From Rhodococcus rhodnii NBRC 100604 (GTDB taxonomy: Bacteria > Actinomycetota > Actinomycetes > Mycobacteriales > Mycobacteriaceae): a stretch of 64,000 bases of DNA. Position 1 is the stretch's first letter. Every line of letters begins with the position of its first letter. The notes under the pieces were generated by a model. It had not been told where the DNA came from. It saw only the letters and a program-made list of their open reading frames with translations, and did no database searches. Of this stretch, positions 33,332 through 40,399 are shown in pieces. The DNA is taken from the NCBI RefSeq assembly GCF_001894925.1, contig NZ_BCXD01000010.1:1-64000 (forward strand). Reading direction: 5' to 3'. Position numbers and translations under genes: made by a program.

Positions 33332-34576
33332 CTACGCAACGATGTCGCGGACGATGCCGTCGGCGAGCAGGCGGCCACGGTCCGTCAGGACGTAGCGCTC
33401 GCCGCTCGCTTCCCCGCCGCCGGCTCCGTCACCGCCGGATTCACCGCCCTCGAGCACCAGCAGGCCGTCGTCGACGCGGTCGTCCGCCACGCGCCGCTCG
33501 GCAGCGGTGAGGTCGGCCGCAGGCAGGCCCGTCCGCAGCCGGATCGTGAGCATGAGGCGCTCGAGGTGCGCGTCGTCGTCGGTCAGCGTCTCGTGGCCGG
33601 CGACCGGCAGTGTGCCCTCGGCCAGGACGTCCGCGTAGCGCGCGGGGTGCTTGACGTTCCACCACCGCACTCCCCCGACGTGGCTGTGCGCGCCCGGGCC
33701 GGCGCCCCACCAGTCGCCGCCGTCCCAGTAGCCCAGGTTGTGACGGCACCGCGCCGCCTCCCCCCTCGCCCAGTTGGACACCTCGTACCAGTCGAAGCCC
33801 GCCGCACGCAGCCGCCGGTCGACGAGTTCGTAGCGGGCGGCGAGGACGTCGTCGTCGGGCGCCGGGAGATCGCCCCGCCGCACCTTGCGCGCCATCGCGG
33901 TGCCGTCCTCGACGATGAGCGAGTACGCCGACACGTGATCGACGTCCGCTTCGAGGACGGCGGACAACGACAGGTCGAGGTCGGATTCGGACTCGCCGGG
34001 CGTCCCGTAGATGAGATCGAGGTTCACGTGAGCGAAGCCGGCGGCCCGCGCCTCGCGTGCGGCCGCGACGGCGCGACCCGGCGTGTGGGTGCGGTCGAGG
34101 ACGCGCAGCACGTGCTCGGCGGCCGACTGCATCCCGAGCGAGACGCGCGTGTATCCGCCGCGCAGCAACGCGTCGAAGAACTCCGGCGAGGTCGACTCGG
34201 GGTTGGACTCCGTCGTCACCTCGGCGCCGGGCGCGAGCCCGAAACTCGACCGCACCGCCGCGAGCACGTCGGTGAGCCCGTCGCCGCCGAGCAGCGACGG
34301 CGTGCCGCCGCCCACGAACACGGTGTCCGCCGCGGGTGCGCCCGTCAGTTCGGCGGCGGCGTCGAGTTCGCGCCGCAGGCCCTCCAGCCACGACGACGGC
34401 GACGCGGACGTCCCCAGCTCACCGGGCGTGTAGGTGTTGAAGTCGCAGTAGCCGCACCGTGTCGCGCAGAACGGGACGTGGACGTAGACGCCGAACGGGC
34501 GGGTTCCGACGCCCGCCGTCGCGGTCTCGGGCAGCACGAACGGCCCGTCGGTGGCGGTGGGGGTCGAGGTGGTCAC
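33332..34576 (-). CDS. hemW: radical SAM protein HemW (HemN-like)
   Basis: Radical SAM protein of the HemN/HemW group (414 aa); HemW is thought to carry heme to target enzymes rather than to oxidise coproporphyrinogen. The iron-sulfur motif is VPFCATRCGYCDFNTYTPGE (CxxxCxxC). SAM-binding segments follow: VFVGGGTPSLL and ESNPES. A C-terminal HemN domain is present. The start is uncertain: GTG 34576 follows a possible -10 (GACACT) by 6 nt, consistent with leaderless expression, and the 45 codons upstream look non-coding. It is divergent from the sulfite reductase leader. Confidence 0.9.
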   Translation of the reverse strand: MTTSTPTATDGPFVLPETATAGVGTRPFGVYVHVPFCATRCGYCDFNTYTPGELGTSASPSSWLEGLRRELDAAAELTGAPAADTVFVGGGTPSLLGGDGLTDVLAAVRSSFGLAPGAEVTTESNPESTSPEFFDALLRGGYTRVSLGMQSAAEHVLRVLDRTHTPGRAVAAAREARAAGFAHVNLDLIYGTPGESESDLDLSLSAVLEADVDHVSAYSLIVEDGTAMARKVRRGDLPAPDDDVLAARYELVDRRLRAAGFDWYEVSNWARGEAARCRHNLGYWDGGDWWGAGPGAHSHVGGVRWWNVKHPARYADVLAEGTLPVAGHETLTDDDAHLERLMLTIRLRTGLPAADLTAAERRVADDRVDDGLLVLEGGESGGDGAGGGEASGERYVLTDRGRLLADGIVRDIVA

Positions 34577-34637
34577 CCTTCCAGTGTCCCACCGGTCCGT
34601 GCGGCGAGATCGGGCCTGGTCGCCACCCGATCGCCAC

Positions 34638-34661
34638 ATTTCCCCCGATTTTCGGGGAAAT
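34638..34661. promoter_or_regulatory. 24-bp palindrome upstream of the sulfite reductase operon
   Basis: ATTTCCCC-N8-GGGGAAAT (arms 34638-34645 and 34654-34661), with further partial symmetry in the spacer. It lies about 50-72 bp upstream of the predicted start of the cysteine-leader transcript and 60-85 bp from hemW. Likely an operator for an unidentified regulator of sulfur assimilation. Confidence 0.5.
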
Positions 34662-34696
34662 ACGGTGCCCATGTGGGAACGGCCGCCGTGACGTGG

Positions 34697-34702
34697 CACA
34701 AT
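34697..34702 (+). promoter_or_regulatory. -10 element of leaderless promoter for the cysteine leader ORF
   Basis: CACAAT ends 7 nt before the ATG at 34710, so transcription would begin at the start codon itself. The arrangement is the same as that before the second leader ORF (TAGATT at 44467-44472). Confidence 0.55.
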
Positions 34703-34709
34703 CGGTCGC

Positions 34710-34802
34710 ATGATCGGAACCGGGGTGCGACTCGTGGCACGACGCCACGTCGACCTTGCGCGCGTGTGCAGCAGCTGCTGTCGCTGCTGTCGCTGTCGCT
34801 GA
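34710..34802 (+). CDS. Cys-rich leader peptide upstream of sirA-cysHDN
   Basis: A 30-codon ORF that ends VCSSCCRCCRCR: five cysteine codons among the last eleven in the run TGC-AGC-AGC-TGC-TGT-CGC-TGC-TGT-CGC-TGT, six when counted as written, packed just before the stop. It starts at the predicted 5' end of the mRNA (leaderless) and stops 157 nt before sirA. In mycobacteria, leaderless polycysteine ORFs in front of sulfur-assimilation operons are reported to act as cysteine-responsive attenuators: ribosome stalling at low Cys-tRNA opens expression of the operon. The location and composition fit that mechanism; the peptide itself probably has no function. The remaining leader (34803-34959) holds no other gene. 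Confidence 0.8.
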   Translation: MIGTGVRLVARRHVDLARVCSSCCRCCRCR

Positions 34803-34959
34803 CCCGCCCTCGTTCGGTATTCGCGCCGCCTCCCGCAGGCACCGTCGCCCGTTCGACACGCGTCCTCGGTCAGCCCACCCGGGCGCCAGCGCCCGCTCCC
34901 AGCACGGCCCCTGCGCGCCCGGTCACGGGCGTGCTCCGACCCCCAGGAGCTCTCCCCCG

Positions 34960-36681
34960 ATGCCCTCCTCGACCAACGAGACCCCGCCGGCCGCCGAGGC
35001 CCGTACGCCGCGTGCCCGCACCGGCCGGCCGGTCAAGCGCCGCGCCGAGGGCCAGTGGGCCCTCGGATACCGCGAACCGCTCAACGCGAACGAACAGAGC
35101 AAGAAGGACGACAACCCCCTCAACGTCCGTGCGCGCATCGAGAACATCTACGCGCACCAGGGCTTCGACAGCATCGACAAGGGCGATCTGCGTGGCCGCT
35201 TCCGCTGGTGGGGCCTCTACACGCAGCGCGCCGAAGGCTACGACGGCACGTGGACGGGCGACGAGAACATCGACGTCCTCGAGGACAGCCACTTCATGAT
35301 GCGCGTGCGCTGCGACGCCGGCGCACTGAACGTCGAGCAGCTGCGTACCGTCGCGGGCATCTCGACGGAGTTCGCGCGCGACACCGCGGACCTCTCCGAC
35401 CGCGAGAACGTGCAGTACCACTGGATCGACGTCGAGAACGTCCCGGAGATCTGGAAGCGCCTCGAATCGGTCGGCCTGAAGACGACCGAGGCGTGCGGCG
35501 ACTGCCCCCGCGTCGTCCTCGGGTCGCCGCTCGCCGGTGAGTCGTTCGACGAGATCCTCGATCCCACGCCCGCGATCGACGAGATCGTCCGCCGCTACAT
35601 CGGCAAGCCCGAGTACTCGAACCTGCCGCGCAAGTTCAAGACGGCGATCTCCGGCCAGCAGGACGTCGTCCACGAGATCAACGACATCGCGTTCGTCGGC
35701 GTCGTGCATCCCGAGCACGGCCCGGGTCTCGACCTCTGGGTCGGGGGTGGCCTGTCGACGAATCCGATGCTCGCGCAGCGCGTCGGCGCATGGATCCCGC
35801 TCGACGAGGTGCCGGACGTGTGGGAGGCCGTCGTCTCGCTCTACCGCGACTACGGCTACCGCCGGCTGCGGACCAAGGCGCGGCTGAAGTTCCTCGTCAA
35901 GGACTGGGGCATCGAGAAGTTCCGTCAGGTGCTCGAGGACGAGTACCTGCACCGCACGCTGATCGACGGCCCCGCCCCGGAGAAGCCGACGCGCCCGATC
36001 GATCACGTCGGAATCACCAAGCTGCGCAACGGAACCAACGCTGTCGGCGTCGCCCCGATCGCGGGCCGCGTCTCTGGCACGATCCTGCGGCAGGTCGCCG
36101 ACGCCGCCGAGCGCGCGGGAAGCGACCGGATCCGGTTCACGCCGTACCAGAAGATCATCGTGCTCGACGTCGCGGACGACCGCCTCGACGGCCTGATCGC
36201 CGACCTCGACGCGCTCGGTCTGCCGGCGCGGCCGTCGCACTGGCGCAAGAACCTCATGGCGTGCTCGGGAATCGAGTTCTGCAAGCTGTCGTTCGCCGAG
36301 ACCCGCAAGCGCTCCCAGGTTCTCGTGCCCGAGCTCGAGAAGCGGCTCGACGACATCAACGCGCAGCTCGACGTCCCGATCACGATCAACATCAACGGCT
36401 GCCCCAACTCGTGCGCGCGGTCGCAGATCGCCGACATCGGGTTCAAGGGACAGCTCGTCGACGACGGCGCGGGTAACCAGGTCGAAGGCTTCCAGGTGCA
36501 CCTCGGCGGCAGCCTCGGCTTCGACGCCGCGTTCGGCCGCAAGCTCCGCCAGCACAAGGTGACCTCGGACGAACTCGGCGACTACGTCGAGCGGGTCGTC
36601 CGCAACTTCGTGAAGAACCGCACGGACGGTGAGCGTTTCGCCGAATGGACGGTCCGAGCAGACGAGGAGGATCTGCGATGA
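34960..36681 (+). CDS. sirA: ferredoxin-dependent sulfite reductase
   Basis: Reduces sulfite to sulfide with six electrons from ferredoxin, using siroheme and a 4Fe-4S cluster (573 aa). Cluster ligands are Cys435 and Cys441 (ACSGIEFCKL) with Cys481 and Cys485 (NGCPNSCARS). Tyr87 (LYTQRAE) and the ACGDC segment near 179-182 correspond to the Tyr-Cys pair next to the active site of M. tuberculosis SirA. ATG 34960 has AGGAG upstream; the open frame upstream belongs to the leader region. First gene of sirA-cysH-cysD-cysN; ATGA overlap with cysH. The Cys-rich leader ORF likely controls it. Confidence 0.95.
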   Translation: MPSSTNETPPAAEARTPRARTGRPVKRRAEGQWALGYREPLNANEQSKKDDNPLNVRARIENIYAHQGFDSIDKGDLRGRFRWWGLYTQRAEGYDGTWTGDENIDVLEDSHFMMRVRCDAGALNVEQLRTVAGISTEFARDTADLSDRENVQYHWIDVENVPEIWKRLESVGLKTTEACGDCPRVVLGSPLAGESFDEILDPTPAIDEIVRRYIGKPEYSNLPRKFKTAISGQQDVVHEINDIAFVGVVHPEHGPGLDLWVGGGLSTNPMLAQRVGAWIPLDEVPDVWEAVVSLYRDYGYRRLRTKARLKFLVKDWGIEKFRQVLEDEYLHRTLIDGPAPEKPTRPIDHVGITKLRNGTNAVGVAPIAGRVSGTILRQVADAAERAGSDRIRFTPYQKIIVLDVADDRLDGLIADLDALGLPARPSHWRKNLMACSGIEFCKLSFAETRKRSQVLVPELEKRLDDINAQLDVPITININGCPNSCARSQIADIGFKGQLVDDGAGNQVEGFQVHLGGSLGFDAAFGRKLRQHKVTSDELGDYVERVVRNFVKNRTDGERFAEWTVRADEEDLR

Positions 36682-37391
36682 CGGTGGACATCGCGACCGC
36701 GAGCGCCGACGAGTTGCGCGCCGTCGCCGAGCGCGGCGCCGCCGAACTGGACGGCGCCTCGGCGCACGAGTTGCTGCGGTGGACCGAGGACACCTTCGGC
36801 GAGCAGTACATCGTCGCGTCCAACATGCAGGACGGCGTGCTCGTGCACCTCGCCGCGCAGGTGCATCCCGGCGTCGACGTGCTCTTCCTCGACACCGGGT
36901 ATCACTTCGCCGAGACGCTCGGCACGCGCGACGCCGTCGAGCAGGTGTACGGCGTGAACGTCGTGAACGCCCGGCCCGCCGCGAGCGTCGCGGAGCAGGA
37001 CGCGATCGAGGGTAAGGACCTGTTCGCTCGCGACCCGAACCGCTGCTGCGCGCTGCGCAAGGTGGCGCCGCTGAAGGCGACGCTCTCGAACTACCGTGCC
37101 TGGGTCACCGGCATCCGGCGCGTCGAATCGCCGACGCGTGCCAACGCGCCGCTCGTCTCGTTCGACGAGGGCTTCGGACTCGTGAAGATCAATCCGATCG
37201 CGCCGTGGTCCGACGAGCAGATGCAGGCCTACATCGACGAGCACTCGATCCTCGTCAATCCCCTCGTCGACGAGGGTTATCCGTCCATCGGGTGCGCGCC
37301 GTGCACCTCCAAGCCGGCGCCCGGCAGCGATCCGCGCAGCGGACGCTGGGCGGGCAACGCCAAGACAGAATGCGGGTTGCACGCCTCATGA
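36678..37391 (+). CDS. cysH: adenylyl-sulfate (APS) reductase
   Basis: Reduces APS to sulfite and AMP with thioredoxin (237 aa). It carries the full 4Fe-4S motif of APS-using enzymes: Cys123-Cys124 (RCCALRK) and Cys206/Cys209 (GCAPC), plus the catalytic ECGLH cysteine (Cys232). This distinguishes it from cluster-free PAPS reductases, so no APS kinase is needed. GAGGAGG precedes ATG 36678, which overlaps the sirA stop. Overlaps cysD by 4 nt. Confidence 0.95.
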   Translation: MTVDIATASADELRAVAERGAAELDGASAHELLRWTEDTFGEQYIVASNMQDGVLVHLAAQVHPGVDVLFLDTGYHFAETLGTRDAVEQVYGVNVVNARPAASVAEQDAIEGKDLFARDPNRCCALRKVAPLKATLSNYRAWVTGIRRVESPTRANAPLVSFDEGFGLVKINPIAPWSDEQMQAYIDEHSILVNPLVDEGYPSIGCAPCTSKPAPGSDPRSGRWAGNAKTECGLHAS

Positions 37392-38326
37392 GCATCGATC
37401 AGTCCTCACTCCTCGAGTCGCGACCGCACCTCGACGGCACGCAGTTCGACACGCTCTCGGCGCTCGAGTCCGAGGCCATCCACATCTTCCGCGAGGTCGC
37501 GGGCGAGTTCGAGCGTCCCGTCGTGCTCTTCTCGGGCGGCAAGGACTCCACCGTCCTGCTGCACCTCGCGCTCAAGGCGTTCTGGCCCGCGCCGCTGCCG
37601 TTCGCGCTGCTGCACGTCGACACCGGCCACAATCTGCCCGAGGTCCTCGCGTTCCGCGATCACGTCGTCGCGAAGTACGACCTGCGACTGCACGTCGCGA
37701 AGGTCGAGGACTACCTCGCGGACGGCCGGCTCACCGAGCGTCCCGACGGCGTGCGCAATCCGCTGCAGACCGTCCCGTTGCTCGACGCGATCGCCGAGAA
37801 CCGGTTCGACGCAGTCTTCGGCGGTGGCCGCCGCGACGAGGAGCGCTCGCGGGCGAAGGAGCGGATCTTCTCGCTGCGCGACGGATTCGGCCGCTGGGAC
37901 CCGAAGAAGCAGCGTCCCGAGCTGTGGAACCTGTACAACGGCAAGCACTCTCCGGGTGAGCAGGTGCGTGTCTTCCCGCTGAGCAATTTCACGGAGCTCG
38001 ACATCTGGCGCTACATCACGCGTGAGAACGTCGAACTCGCGAGCATCTACTACGCGCATCAGCGCCCCGTCTACCAGCGCGACGGCATGTGGATGACGCC
38101 GGGCGTCTGGGGCGGGCAGGACGAGGCGCTCGAGACCCGTTCGGTGCGCTACCGCACCGTCGGCGACGGGTCGACGACGGGCGCGATCCTGTCCGAGGCC
38201 GCGACGAACGAGGAGATCCTCGCCGAGGTGGCCGCGTCGCGGCTCACCGAGCGCGGGGCGACACGCGGCGACGACCGCGTGTCCGAGGCTGCGATGGAAG
38301 ATCGCAAGCGAGAGGGTTACTTCTGA
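37388..38326 (+). CDS. cysD: sulfate adenylyltransferase subunit 2
   Basis: ATP sulfurylase catalytic subunit that makes APS from ATP and sulfate (312 aa), working with the GTPase CysN. The PP-loop is VVLFSGGKDSTVLLHLA, followed by HVDTGHNLPEVLAFRD and GGGRRDEERSRAKERIFS. ATG 37388 overlaps the cysH stop (ATGA), and cysN starts 2 nt after its stop. Confidence 0.96.
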   Translation: MSIDQSSLLESRPHLDGTQFDTLSALESEAIHIFREVAGEFERPVVLFSGGKDSTVLLHLALKAFWPAPLPFALLHVDTGHNLPEVLAFRDHVVAKYDLRLHVAKVEDYLADGRLTERPDGVRNPLQTVPLLDAIAENRFDAVFGGGRRDEERSRAKERIFSLRDGFGRWDPKKQRPELWNLYNGKHSPGEQVRVFPLSNFTELDIWRYITRENVELASIYYAHQRPVYQRDGMWMTPGVWGGQDEALETRSVRYRTVGDGSTTGAILSEAATNEEILAEVAASRLTERGATRGDDRVSEAAMEDRKREGYF

Positions 38327-38328
38327 TC

Positions 38329-39633
38329 ATGAGCGCAACTCAGCTCCTTCGCCTCGCGACCGCGGGCAGCGTGGACGACGGCAAGTCGACTCTCGTCGGC
38401 CGTCTGCTCTACGACACGAAATCCGTTCTCGCCGACCAGATCGACGCCGTCACCCGCGCGTCGGTCGACAAGGGCCTGTCGACGCCCGACCTGTCGCTGC
38501 TCGTCGACGGCCTGCGCGCCGAGCGCGAGCAGGGCATCACGATCGACGTCGCGTACCGCTACTTCGCGACGCCGCAGCGCTCGTTCGTCCTCGCCGACAC
38601 GCCGGGCCACGTGCAGTACACGCGCAACACCGTGTCGGGCGCGTCGACGGCGCAACTCGTCATCCTGCTCGTCGACGCCCGCAAGGGGGTCATCGCCCAG
38701 ACGCGGCGCCACGCCGCCGTGATGGCGCTGCTGGGTGTGCCGCGACTCGTGCTGGCCGTCAACAAGATCGACCTCGTCGAGGATCCCGCGACCGTGTTCG
38801 GCGAGGTCTCGGCGGAGTTCGCCGAGATCACGTCCGCGCTCGGCTGGAAGCCCGACGCCGTCACCGCGATCCCGGTCTCGGCGCTGCACGGCGACAACGT
38901 CGCGGTGCGCTCCGAGAACACGCCGTACTACGACGGTCCGACGCTCATGGAGCACCTCGAGTCGGTCCCGGTCGACGCCGAACCGCACCGCGTGAACCTG
39001 CGCTTCCCGGTGCAGTACGTGATCCGTCCCCGCACCGCCGAGTACCCCGACTACCGCGGCTACGCGGGCCAGGTCGGCGCCGGGTCGGTGCGTCCGGGTG
39101 ACGAGGTCGTCGTGCTGCCGTCCGGCATCAGGACGACGGTCGAACGGATCGACACCGCCGACGGCGAACTCGATGTCGCGCACGCGGGCCGCAGCGTCAC
39201 GCTCGTCCTCGCCGACGACGTCGACATCTCACGCGGCGACACCATCGCCTCTCCCGAGGACGCCCCGGAGCCGATCGCGGACTTCGAGGCGACGGTGTGC
39301 TGGCTCGCGGAGAAGCCGCTGCACCCGGGTGCGCGTCTGCTGCTCAAGCACGGCACACGCACGACGCAGGCGATCGTCGGCAGTATCGTGGAGCGCTTCG
39401 ACGAGCAGACGCTGTCGACCGAGCCGTCACCGGACTCACTGTCGCTCAACGAGATCGGCAAGATCTCGGTGCGCGTCGCCGATCCGATCGTCGCCGACGA
39501 CTACGCCGTGAACCGGCACACGGGCTCCTTCCTGCTCATCGACCCCGCGGGCGGAAACACACTCGCCGCCGGGCTCGTGGGCGATGCGATCGCGACCGTC
39601 GAGGCCGCAGGAGTCGTGGCCGGAGCCGAGTGA
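38329..39633 (+). CDS. cysN: sulfate adenylyltransferase subunit 1 (GTPase)
   Basis: Translation-factor-like GTPase that drives APS synthesis with CysD (434 aa). G1 GSVDDGKST (13-21), G3 DTPGHVQYTRN, G4 NKID are intact; beta-barrel domains follow. The length shows that it lacks the C-terminal APS kinase domain found in mycobacterial CysNC, which fits the APS-type CysH in this operon. Starts 2 nt after cysD. Confidence 0.95.
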   Translation: MSATQLLRLATAGSVDDGKSTLVGRLLYDTKSVLADQIDAVTRASVDKGLSTPDLSLLVDGLRAEREQGITIDVAYRYFATPQRSFVLADTPGHVQYTRNTVSGASTAQLVILLVDARKGVIAQTRRHAAVMALLGVPRLVLAVNKIDLVEDPATVFGEVSAEFAEITSALGWKPDAVTAIPVSALHGDNVAVRSENTPYYDGPTLMEHLESVPVDAEPHRVNLRFPVQYVIRPRTAEYPDYRGYAGQVGAGSVRPGDEVVVLPSGIRTTVERIDTADGELDVAHAGRSVTLVLADDVDISRGDTIASPEDAPEPIADFEATVCWLAEKPLHPGARLLLKHGTRTTQAIVGSIVERFDEQTLSTEPSPDSLSLNEIGKISVRVADPIVADDYAVNRHTGSFLLIDPAGGNTLAAGLVGDAIATVEAAGVVAGAE

Positions 39634-39637
39634 TCTC

Positions 39638-40399
39638 GTGTTCGCCACCTCTGCACCCCCGCTCGTCGCGGTCGCGCACGGCAGCCGCGATCCGCGCAGC
39701 GCTGCCGTGATCGGCGAGGCCGTCGCGAACCTTCGCGCGGCCTCGCCCGATCTCGACGTGCGAGCGGCGTTCCTCGATCTCAGCGCGCCGCGGATCGATC
39801 ACGTCCTGACGACGCTGGCGCGCGAGGGCCACCACGAGGTCGTCGTCGCACCGATGCTGCTGGGCCGGGCCTTCCACGCGCGCGTGGATCTTCCCGGGAT
39901 CATCGCGGCAGTGCGGTCCCGTCATCCCCGGCTGACGGTGCACACCGCCGACGTCCTCGGCCCGGATCCACGACTGATCGCCGCCGTCCGTGATCGTGTG
40001 ACGGACATCGGTGTGGCGGCGGGCGATCCGGACGTGGGTGTCGCGCTCGTGGCGGTCGGGTCGTCCGACGCCGCCGCCAATGACGTGACGAGCCGCATCG
40101 TCGGCACACTCCGTGCGGGAGCCGGATGGCATTCGGCGACGGCATGTTTCGCGACGGCCGCCTCCCCCTCGGTGAGCGACGCCATTGCTTCACTGCGTGA
40201 GCGCGGTGCGCGCGACGTCGTCGTGGCGCCGTGGTTCCTCGCGCCCGGCCTGCTCATCGACCGCGTCCACGACGCCGCTGCGGCAGGCCGCGCCCGCGTC
40301 GCCCCCACGATCGGCGCGCACCCGGCCCTCACCGAGGTCGTGCTCGATCGCTACCGCGCCGCCCTCGAGCGGGCGCGGCACACGCGCGCCGCGGGCTGA
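39638..40399 (+). CDS. CbiX/SirB-family sirohydrochlorin chelatase-like protein
   Basis: A 253-residue chelatase of the CbiX type with two half-domains. The metal/tetrapyrrole histidine is in VAVAHGSRDPR (His14), with VVVAPMLLGRAFHARVDLP supplying the second site; the C-terminal half repeats the fold (VVVAPWFLAPGLLIDRV). Next to sulfite reductase it probably inserts iron into sirohydrochlorin to make siroheme. M. tuberculosis has the equivalent che1 (Rv2393) after cysH. GTG 39638 lies 4 nt after cysN; ribosome binding is weak. Convergent with cysA. Confidence 0.82.
   Translation: MFATSAPPLVAVAHGSRDPRSAAVIGEAVANLRAASPDLDVRAAFLDLSAPRIDHVLTTLAREGHHEVVVAPMLLGRAFHARVDLPGIIAAVRSRHPRLTVHTADVLGPDPRLIAAVRDRVTDIGVAAGDPDVGVALVAVGSSDAAANDVTSRIVGTLRAGAGWHSATACFATAASPSVSDAIASLRERGARDVVVAPWFLAPGLLIDRVHDAAAAGRARVAPTIGAHPALTEVVLDRYRAALERARHTRAAG

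Follow-up and report, generated by a model that had tools for sequence, protein, structure and literature searches.

Polycysteine leaders reportedly act in Mycobacterium smegmatis, where a stalled ribosome is said to prevent the structure that would hide the start region of the next gene. Parts of a 2026 article restate this work (Canestrari 2020) and place the cysteine genes of M. smegmatis under translation attenuation (PMC13236596). Passages of another article also cite it on the M. smegmatis leaders (PMC9094748), and a section of a review describes contiguous Cys codons in them (PMC9031893). Sections of an earlier study describe short open reading frames (ORFs) that precede cys operons of Mycobacterium and Propionibacterium acnes and have a run of Cys shortly before their stop; there, the mycobacterial cys leaders are without conserved terminator hairpins and Rho is suggested (Seliverstov 2005, PMC1262725). 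Eight leaders are listed for Streptomyces lividans in parts of PMC8079986, none of them given there as cysteine-dependent. Here, we analysed a window of 64,000 nucleotides (nt) of Rhodococcus rhodnii NBRC 100604 (contig NZ_BCXD01000010.1, positions 1 to 64,000), in which a short leader ORF precedes sirA. Judging from sequence comparisons, the leader ORF of the sirA-cysH-cysD-cysN(-cbiX) transcript very probably makes the operon answer to cysteine, via a ribosome that stalls at one UGU codon, that of the Cys at position 14 of a conserved motif (Cys14).

The original prediction placed at this locus a 30-codon ORF with its ATG 7 nt past a CACAAT hexamer and a Cys-rich end 157 nt ahead of sirA. 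The ORF is present at 34710-34802, with CACAAT at 34697-34702 and the ATG, exactly 7 nt on, at 34710. The coordinates confirm the rest: 6 of the last 11 codons are Cys, and a gap of 157 nt separates the stop from the sirA ATG (34960). The elements of the leader are the following.

34694..34702, + strand: predicted extended -10 element, TG-G-CACAAT, of a leaderless promoter; sequence and spacing are kept in relatives
34710-34802, + strand: leader ORF of 30 codons, predicted leaderless, encoding MIGTGVRLVARRHVDLARVCSSCCRCCRCR and then a stop; homologue of NF042936 and NF042934
34740..34781, + strand: conserved core R1-R-H-V-D-L-A-R-V-C-S-S-C-C14 (codons 11-24), with Cys14 kept and synonymous codon variation
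34774..34801, + strand: tandem repeat forming the Cys-rich tail (Tandem Repeats Finder, 100% matches, two overlapping rows)
34779..34782, + strand: Cys14 codon TGT and the C that follows, the proposed sensor codon, with a TGT bias at Cys14 in relatives

Like the mycobacterial polycysteine leaderless attenuators, the leader has a start predicted to be leaderless, carries its Cys codons shortly before the stop, and lies ahead of sulfur genes (sirA, cysH, cysD, cysN). Its peptide matches NF042936, the Ms4527A family of Cys-rich leader peptides, with an E-value of 6.3e-9 and 35.3 bits over model positions 1-20 of 21, and it occupies the same place before sirA as the relatives that pass the cut-off of this family. 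Above cut-off, NF042936 was found in 14 of 61 genomes, that of the window not being one of them. The window leader differs from this family by its duplicated tail and by its residue 7, an Ala, which is Lys in 15 of the 23 distinct peptides anchored on sirA. The wider motif family of the leader is NF042934 (cis_reg_atten), found above cut-off in 47 of 61 relatives, 126 of 197 genomes of the class, 7 of 159 of the phylum and none of 14 control genomes (10 of the 14 have weak matches under the cut-off). The three leader peptides that were submitted to Pfam gave no match at E-values up to 10, and the best Rfam match within 34500-35100 scored 10.6 bits (E-value of 3.3) to a family with a gathering score of 40. 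Unlike in the polycysteine attenuators of Canestrari et al. (2020), as far as citing articles describe them, the weight here lies on the peptide together with a single UGU and not on a Cys run. The candidates of Seliverstov 2005 came from few genomes, and the likeness to them lies in the features that the article describes (PMC1262725). The original prediction of a leaderless, cysteine-linked leader as in mycobacteria is well supported by the homology to NF042936, although the score lies under the cut-off of that family, by synteny and by the conserved promoter-to-start spacing. By its sequence, the leader belongs, as a new and diverged member, to the leaderless cysteine-responsive leaders known from mycobacteria, and the function first assigned to it is probable by homology.

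The leader is a constant neighbour of sirA. An orthologue of sirA was found in 27 of the 28 genomes of the genus, our own included, and the leader ORF in all 27; the 28th genome (G026) is 74% complete and its best sirA match is 63% identical. We then used a second set, for which the search started from the sirA protein instead of the leader peptide; it comprises 80 named loci (the best 80 of a longer list; among the matches listed, mostly Rhodococcus and Nocardia). The leader was present in 79 of these, and the exception (L318) has only 54 nt before the match. Among 17 distinct sequences of the genus, the columns changing at codon positions 1, 2 and 3 were 2, 4 and 12 for codons 2-10, and 2, 1 and 8 for RRHVDLxR. 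This is the pattern that a translated, constrained peptide would leave.

The motif common to the leaders is R-R-H-V-D-L-x-R-x-x-S-x-x-C, with the Cys at position 14 when the first Arg is counted as 1. A search for six of these residues, which did not require the Cys, found the motif upstream of 36 of 50 sirA matches, and Cys14 in 35 of the 36; the 14 matches without the six-residue pattern include changed motifs, e.g., Arg-Leu-His. Arg8 was not required either, and it occurs in 23 of 23 distinct sirA-anchored peptides. When Asp5 and Arg8 were required, 254 loci, many of them overlapping, gave 124 distinct ORFs with the motif, of which 121 have Cys14. The remaining three are L024, L166, with a TGA stop at position 14, and L200, read in a frame without Cys. 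In L166, codon 14 is TGA followed by C, in place of TGT. A near-identical set of 124 distinct leaders spans 54 genus tokens and 87 genomes. Cys14 is separated from the stop by 1 to 6 codons in 114 of the 121 leaders, and in 35 of them it is the only Cys from the motif start on. In the named loci, Cys14 was found in 76 of the 79 leaders, and position 6 is Tyr in 17 of the 80, a residue unseen by the pattern that we used (L/F/M/W). Arg1 is encoded by six codons. The original prediction saw the key feature in the polycysteine run. The run is not conserved, and the sequences point to the peptide motif with its UGU-encoded Cys14 as the conserved part of the leaders.

The codon of Cys14 is nearly invariant. 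It is TGT in 119 of the 121 leaders, whereas TGT makes up 123 of the 718 Cys codons in the flanking ORFs of the same loci and 19 of the 114 in the genes of the window. The Cys codons at two earlier positions do not follow it: Cys7 is TGC in 50 of 54 cases and Cys10 in 19 of 20, and among the 54 leaders with both Cys7 and Cys14, 49 have TGC and then TGT. T is the last base of codon 14 in 98% of the 121 leaders; for each of the other codons from 1 to 17 the share is at most 28%. Our pattern required Arg2 and missed 45 of 162 loci of the family search, which we re-read at the match coordinates of the hidden Markov model; the 41 distinct leaders so obtained have TGT at Cys14 in 41 of 41 cases. The named sirA loci have TGT in 76 of 76 (60 of 60 distinct), against 10 of the 555 Cys codons in sirA itself. 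A combined re-collection that required Cys14 comprises 254 distinct leaders, of which 252 read TGT. Counted by genus token, TGT is the sole codon in 52 of 54; one token has both codons and one only TGC. Leaders are related sequences, and Fisher tests of the TGT bias overstate their independence. In an alignment of the window leader with 28 leaders chosen from 63 references, leaving out the three without Cys14, TGTC is the only invariant run of four bases. The UGU bias is unmentioned in the titles and abstract openings of the literature searched, a search outside which the text of Canestrari 2020 lay.

The spacing between promoter and leader start is conserved as well. The exact arrangement CACAAT-N7-ATG occurs in 25 of the 27 genus members, the two others having CACACT-N7 (L015) and CACAAT-N6 (L046). 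A CANNAT-like hexamer lies 6-7 nt ahead of the start in 78 of the 79 leaders of named sirA loci. In 80 of the 121 leaders, a (T/C)ANNNT -10 element lies 6-7 nt ahead of an in-frame ATG or GTG; another 13 show just a Shine-Dalgarno-like lead, and the last 28 show neither feature. Such a -10 element precedes 82 of 264 in-frame starts vs. 2 of 118 out-of-frame starts. In a separate listing, candidate starts outside the genus were taken on a loosely scored -10 element, and some of them are doubtful. A scan with the sigma-70 consensus gave no match for the leader promoter. We infer that translation of the leader begins without a leader sequence of its own.

Put together, these comparisons lead us to infer stalling, a cysteine response, a role for the peptide and a reason for the UGU. 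RNA polymerase would start at or beside the ATG, and ribosomes would translate the leader from the 5' end. With plentiful charged tRNA-Cys, the ribosome would pass to the stop and sirA would be kept low; with scarce Cys-tRNA, it would wait at the Cys14 UGU, and here also at the extra Cys codons, and sirA would rise. Once Cys14 has reached the A site, the segment R-R-H-V-D-L-x-R would occupy the exit tunnel, and it may help the wait. Known arrest peptides contact the tunnel roughly where residues 1 to 8 would then lie, and such a contact would explain why these residues are kept while their codons vary, which is the behaviour expected of arrest peptides and found in the leader. Those of the TnaC type have conserved residues whose distance to the waiting codon is fixed, with Rho as a possible output. 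The waiting codon of our leader would be a Cys codon, not a stop. As for the codon, a tRNA-like pattern allowing the anticodons GCA and ACA matched one place in the genome, identified by ARAGORN as tRNA-Cys(gca); the pattern is strict and further tRNA-Cys copies could escape it. Because the single tRNA-Cys found has the anticodon GCA, UGU would be read by wobble. This may slow its decoding, and UGU may have been kept for that reason.

Several observations weigh against a stall at the UGU of Cys14. Four leaders are without Cys14 (L024 and, in the named loci, L275, L291 and L302), and read TGT-C at codon 12; at position 14, L166 has a stop and two others (L033 and L158) have UGC. The base after the UGU is C in 216 of 254 leaders, for which decoding alone gives no explanation. 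TGT is also frequent elsewhere in the named loci: at position 12 (17 of 17), position 13 (25 of 42), position 10 (19 of 77), position 17 (6 of 16) and position 20 (7 of 12), all of which exceed the usage of sirA. The late Cys codons may share the role of Cys14. The window leader is under the cut-offs of both families, i.e., 45 for NF042936 (35.3 bits as protein, 34.4 in six frames) and 27 for NF042934 (25.2 and 24.2 bits). Three other leaders of the same genome score 20.5, 20.0 and 19.4 bits with NF042934, and one of them, on contig C12, has 33 bits with NF042933, whose cut-off is 45. The genes following the leaders are not all obviously cysteine genes. Finally, in the folding model the predicted Shine-Dalgarno of the window sirA stays at 0.20 unpaired whichever of the six Cys codons the ribosome is placed on.

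The last point concerns the step from the waiting ribosome to sirA, for which two elements of the gap are relevant.

34803..34959, + strand: untranslated gap, rich in C and poor in G (C 79, G 44, A 14, T 20), a possible Rho loading region
34945..34949, + strand: AGGAG, predicted Shine-Dalgarno of sirA, 0.20 unpaired in the folding model

A classical transcription attenuator would have an intrinsic terminator, and no terminator-like site was found in 34560-34980. We see close to an even chance that the output is Rho-dependent termination in the C-rich gap, where a ribosome stalled close to the stop would cover the Rho loading region and a terminating one would expose it. The 100 nt that follow the leader stop contain more C than G in 116 of the 121 leaders (means of 41.5 and 27.3) and in 79 of 79 named sirA leaders, whereas the 100 nt before the leader do so in only 60 of the 121. 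The same holds for 15 of 24 5' regions of the window, that of sirA included, and for one of three other 5' regions of the leader loci; the gene starts behind the window control were crudely predicted. Composition alone is no Rho site. The sources diverge as well: parts of PMC1262725 propose Rho for the mycobacterial cys leaders, in keeping with the missing intrinsic terminator, whereas the translation attenuation reported in parts of PMC13236596 for M. smegmatis speaks against it.

The latter control is the model for the second output, in which the stalled ribosome would prevent an RNA structure from hiding the start region of sirA. This is a reasonable possibility, if short of an even one. 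The Shine-Dalgarno of the window sirA is mostly paired, as this would require, and the start codon goes from 0.39 unpaired when the leader is free to 0.37-0.53 when the ribosome is stalled (0.21 to 0.29-0.57 in L004). The original prediction coupled sirA expression to the supply of Cys-tRNA; to the step from a stalled ribosome to sirA the folding model, which does not stand for the cell itself, lends no support, the Shine-Dalgarno being equally buried with and without the stall. Folding covered 17 of 32 leaders, and the Shine-Dalgarno became more accessible by at least 0.2 in two of the 17 (L020, from 0.07 to 0.78, and L015, from 0.32 to 0.56), while in L012 it became less so. We also considered, and rejected, that the Cys codons pair with RNA further downstream: codons 12-16 show no excess of pairing with the next 220 nt (mean z of -0.01 in 121 leaders). 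Between the two outputs, we slightly favour Rho termination.

A different account would make the leader a plain codon-run attenuator, in which any Cys run suffices, the preceding peptide plays no part and the sensitivity depends on the extra Cys codons. The Cys-rich end of the window leader fits this account, as do the presence of at least two Cys from the motif start on in 77 of the 79 named sirA leaders, the frequent UGU at the late positions 12, 13, 17 and 20, and the contiguous codons described for M. smegmatis in a section of PMC9031893. We nevertheless regard it as doubtful. It does not account for the 35 leaders whose single Cys is at position 14, nor for the Arg8 that all 23 distinct sirA-anchored peptides have in a search that did not require it. 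Positions 7 and 10 (the latter UGC in 58 of 77 named loci) prefer UGC while position 14 has UGU. The tail of the window leader is a 9-nt tandem duplication, with repeats of GCTGCTGTC x 2.4 at 34774-34795 and GCTGTC x 2.7 at 34786-34801. In 38 ORFs of the window, chosen by codon-position G+C, 114 of about 14,200 codons encode Cys, and a hand calculation from these counts puts the binomial chance of the observed number of Cys in the last 11 codons at about 1e-10 per ORF. Since a perfect tandem repeat forms part of the tail, the Cys codons in it cannot be counted as independent and the number overstates the case. Conservation is the stronger argument for a real leader.

Nor need UGUC be kept for decoding: it could be an RNA element, kept for pairing or for the binding of a protein. 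We find this improbable, although the C that commonly follows the UGU (76 of 76 in the named sirA leaders with Cys14) and the UGUC at codon 12 of the leaders that lost Cys14 both speak for it. There is also a weak signal of a local hairpin directly after the UGU. As a candidate element, a hairpin starting at the UGU was rejected: its mean z was -0.38 (nt 39-64), with z below -1 in 31% of the 254 leaders and -4.8 kcal/mol in the window. Some relatives have a strong hairpin right after the UGU, in the region corresponding to 34779-34808, that encloses the leader stop, e.g., GTCAGC-TCTA-GCTGAC in L304. The third base of the UGU is paired at 0.36, as it is with shuffled tails (0.36), and pairing with the downstream RNA is not in excess. 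GACA, the complement of UGUC, was tried as a downstream partner and occurs at 108 places vs. 68.6 in shuffles; it is not the most frequent of its permutations, and we rejected it because ACGA, with the same letters, is commoner (131).

A chance ORF over the tandem repeat, or an N-terminal extension of sirA, deserves hardly any credence: the repeat does form part of the tail and the sirA frame is open upstream as far as 34756, but the leader is kept throughout the genus and the named loci, and its distance to the sirA match varies (97-314 nt in 32 relatives), so that no fixed frame connects the two and a frameshift or fusion into sirA is likewise rejected.

The stall at the UGU of Cys14 is thus the reading that we retain for the leader, and the operon that it would control comprises the following genes.

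34960..36681, + strand: sirA, sulfite/nitrite reductase family (PF01077, PF03460)
36645..37391, + strand: cysH, APS/PAPS reductase (NF002537, TIGR02055); its start may lie further in
37388..38326, + strand: cysD, sulfate adenylyltransferase small subunit (TIGR02039); start set by eye, ATGA overlap with cysH
38329..39633, + strand: cysN, sulfate adenylyltransferase large subunit (TIGR02034); start set by eye
39638..40399, + strand: CbiX-family gene, probable operon member (PF01903); start set by eye

The divergent neighbour of the leader and operon is hemW. Between hemW and the leader promoter there is an inverted repeat, ATTTCCCC-N8-GGGGAAAT, at 34638-34661, which is the sole exact match to its pattern in the genome. 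A related repeat is found at the same place in many relatives, and a loose form was matched in 41 of 62 named leaders. It is a possible operator for sirA or hemW.

The genome encodes four leaders in all among those that we found, and by eye all have TGT at position 14. One (C12:139877-139933, - strand) has a GTG start and a tail ending in CCCTCR, and precedes DUF4395 and rhodanese genes. Another (C11:101897-101953, + strand; L114:1498-1572) has a single Cys, the UGU at 14, and precedes a symporter of the SDF family that may carry cystine. The last (C33:12311-12349, + strand; L115:1459-1548), MATPHLDARSRWYWLHVDLCRTSSGCCRR, looks leaderless; the gene before it is an aminotransferase of class V and the next gene has no Pfam match. 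A nucleotide signature built on TGTC matched nine places in this genome, two of them ending in a short ORF, both already-known leaders; this signature misses two of the four known leaders and is no proof of completeness.

We examined 30 proteins, chosen from 95 loci and those of our genome, with gene starts set by a simple rule; part of the leader loci were hand-picked from strong matches and are not random. Of the 30, one is encoded by a second gene, one by a gene preceding the leader, and 28 by presumed next genes. The 28 comprise six rhodaneses, five luciferase-like monooxygenases, three binding-protein-dependent transporters, two sulfite reductases, two DUF4395 proteins and four without Pfam match, as well as one each of serine acetyltransferase, cysteine dioxygenase, NMT1-like protein, SDF symporter, ABC transporter and transcriptional regulator. 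These genes fit a theme of sulfur metabolism, of which the transporters and monooxygenases are no proof. In five loci (L119, L145, L066, L065 and L060, in genomes G047, G060, G052, G059 and G057, respectively), leaders form pairs on opposite strands about 130-230 nt apart, which suggests divergent operons under the same control. One genus token with large genomes (g35, including G083, G167 and G188) has up to 10 leader matches per genome.

We suggest, tentatively and at less than even confidence, that the leaders of this class, presumably the Actinomycetes, are one family of nascent-peptide-assisted cysteine sensors. In these, R-R-H-V-D-L-x-R in the tunnel would prepare the ribosome to wait at a single near-invariant UGU 13 residues on, and the polycysteine runs after which the mycobacterial leaders are named would be later, local embellishments, the tandem duplication of the window leader among them. 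The locus described here extends the mycobacterial regulatory system to a Rhodococcus genome, and the comparison sharpens a vague Cys run into a UGU at one position of one peptide. Such a signature would be a sharper means of finding sulfur-controlled operons in this class of bacteria. If our reading is true, so nearly fixed a choice between the synonymous codons at this position would make the codon itself, and not only the amino acid, the sensor.

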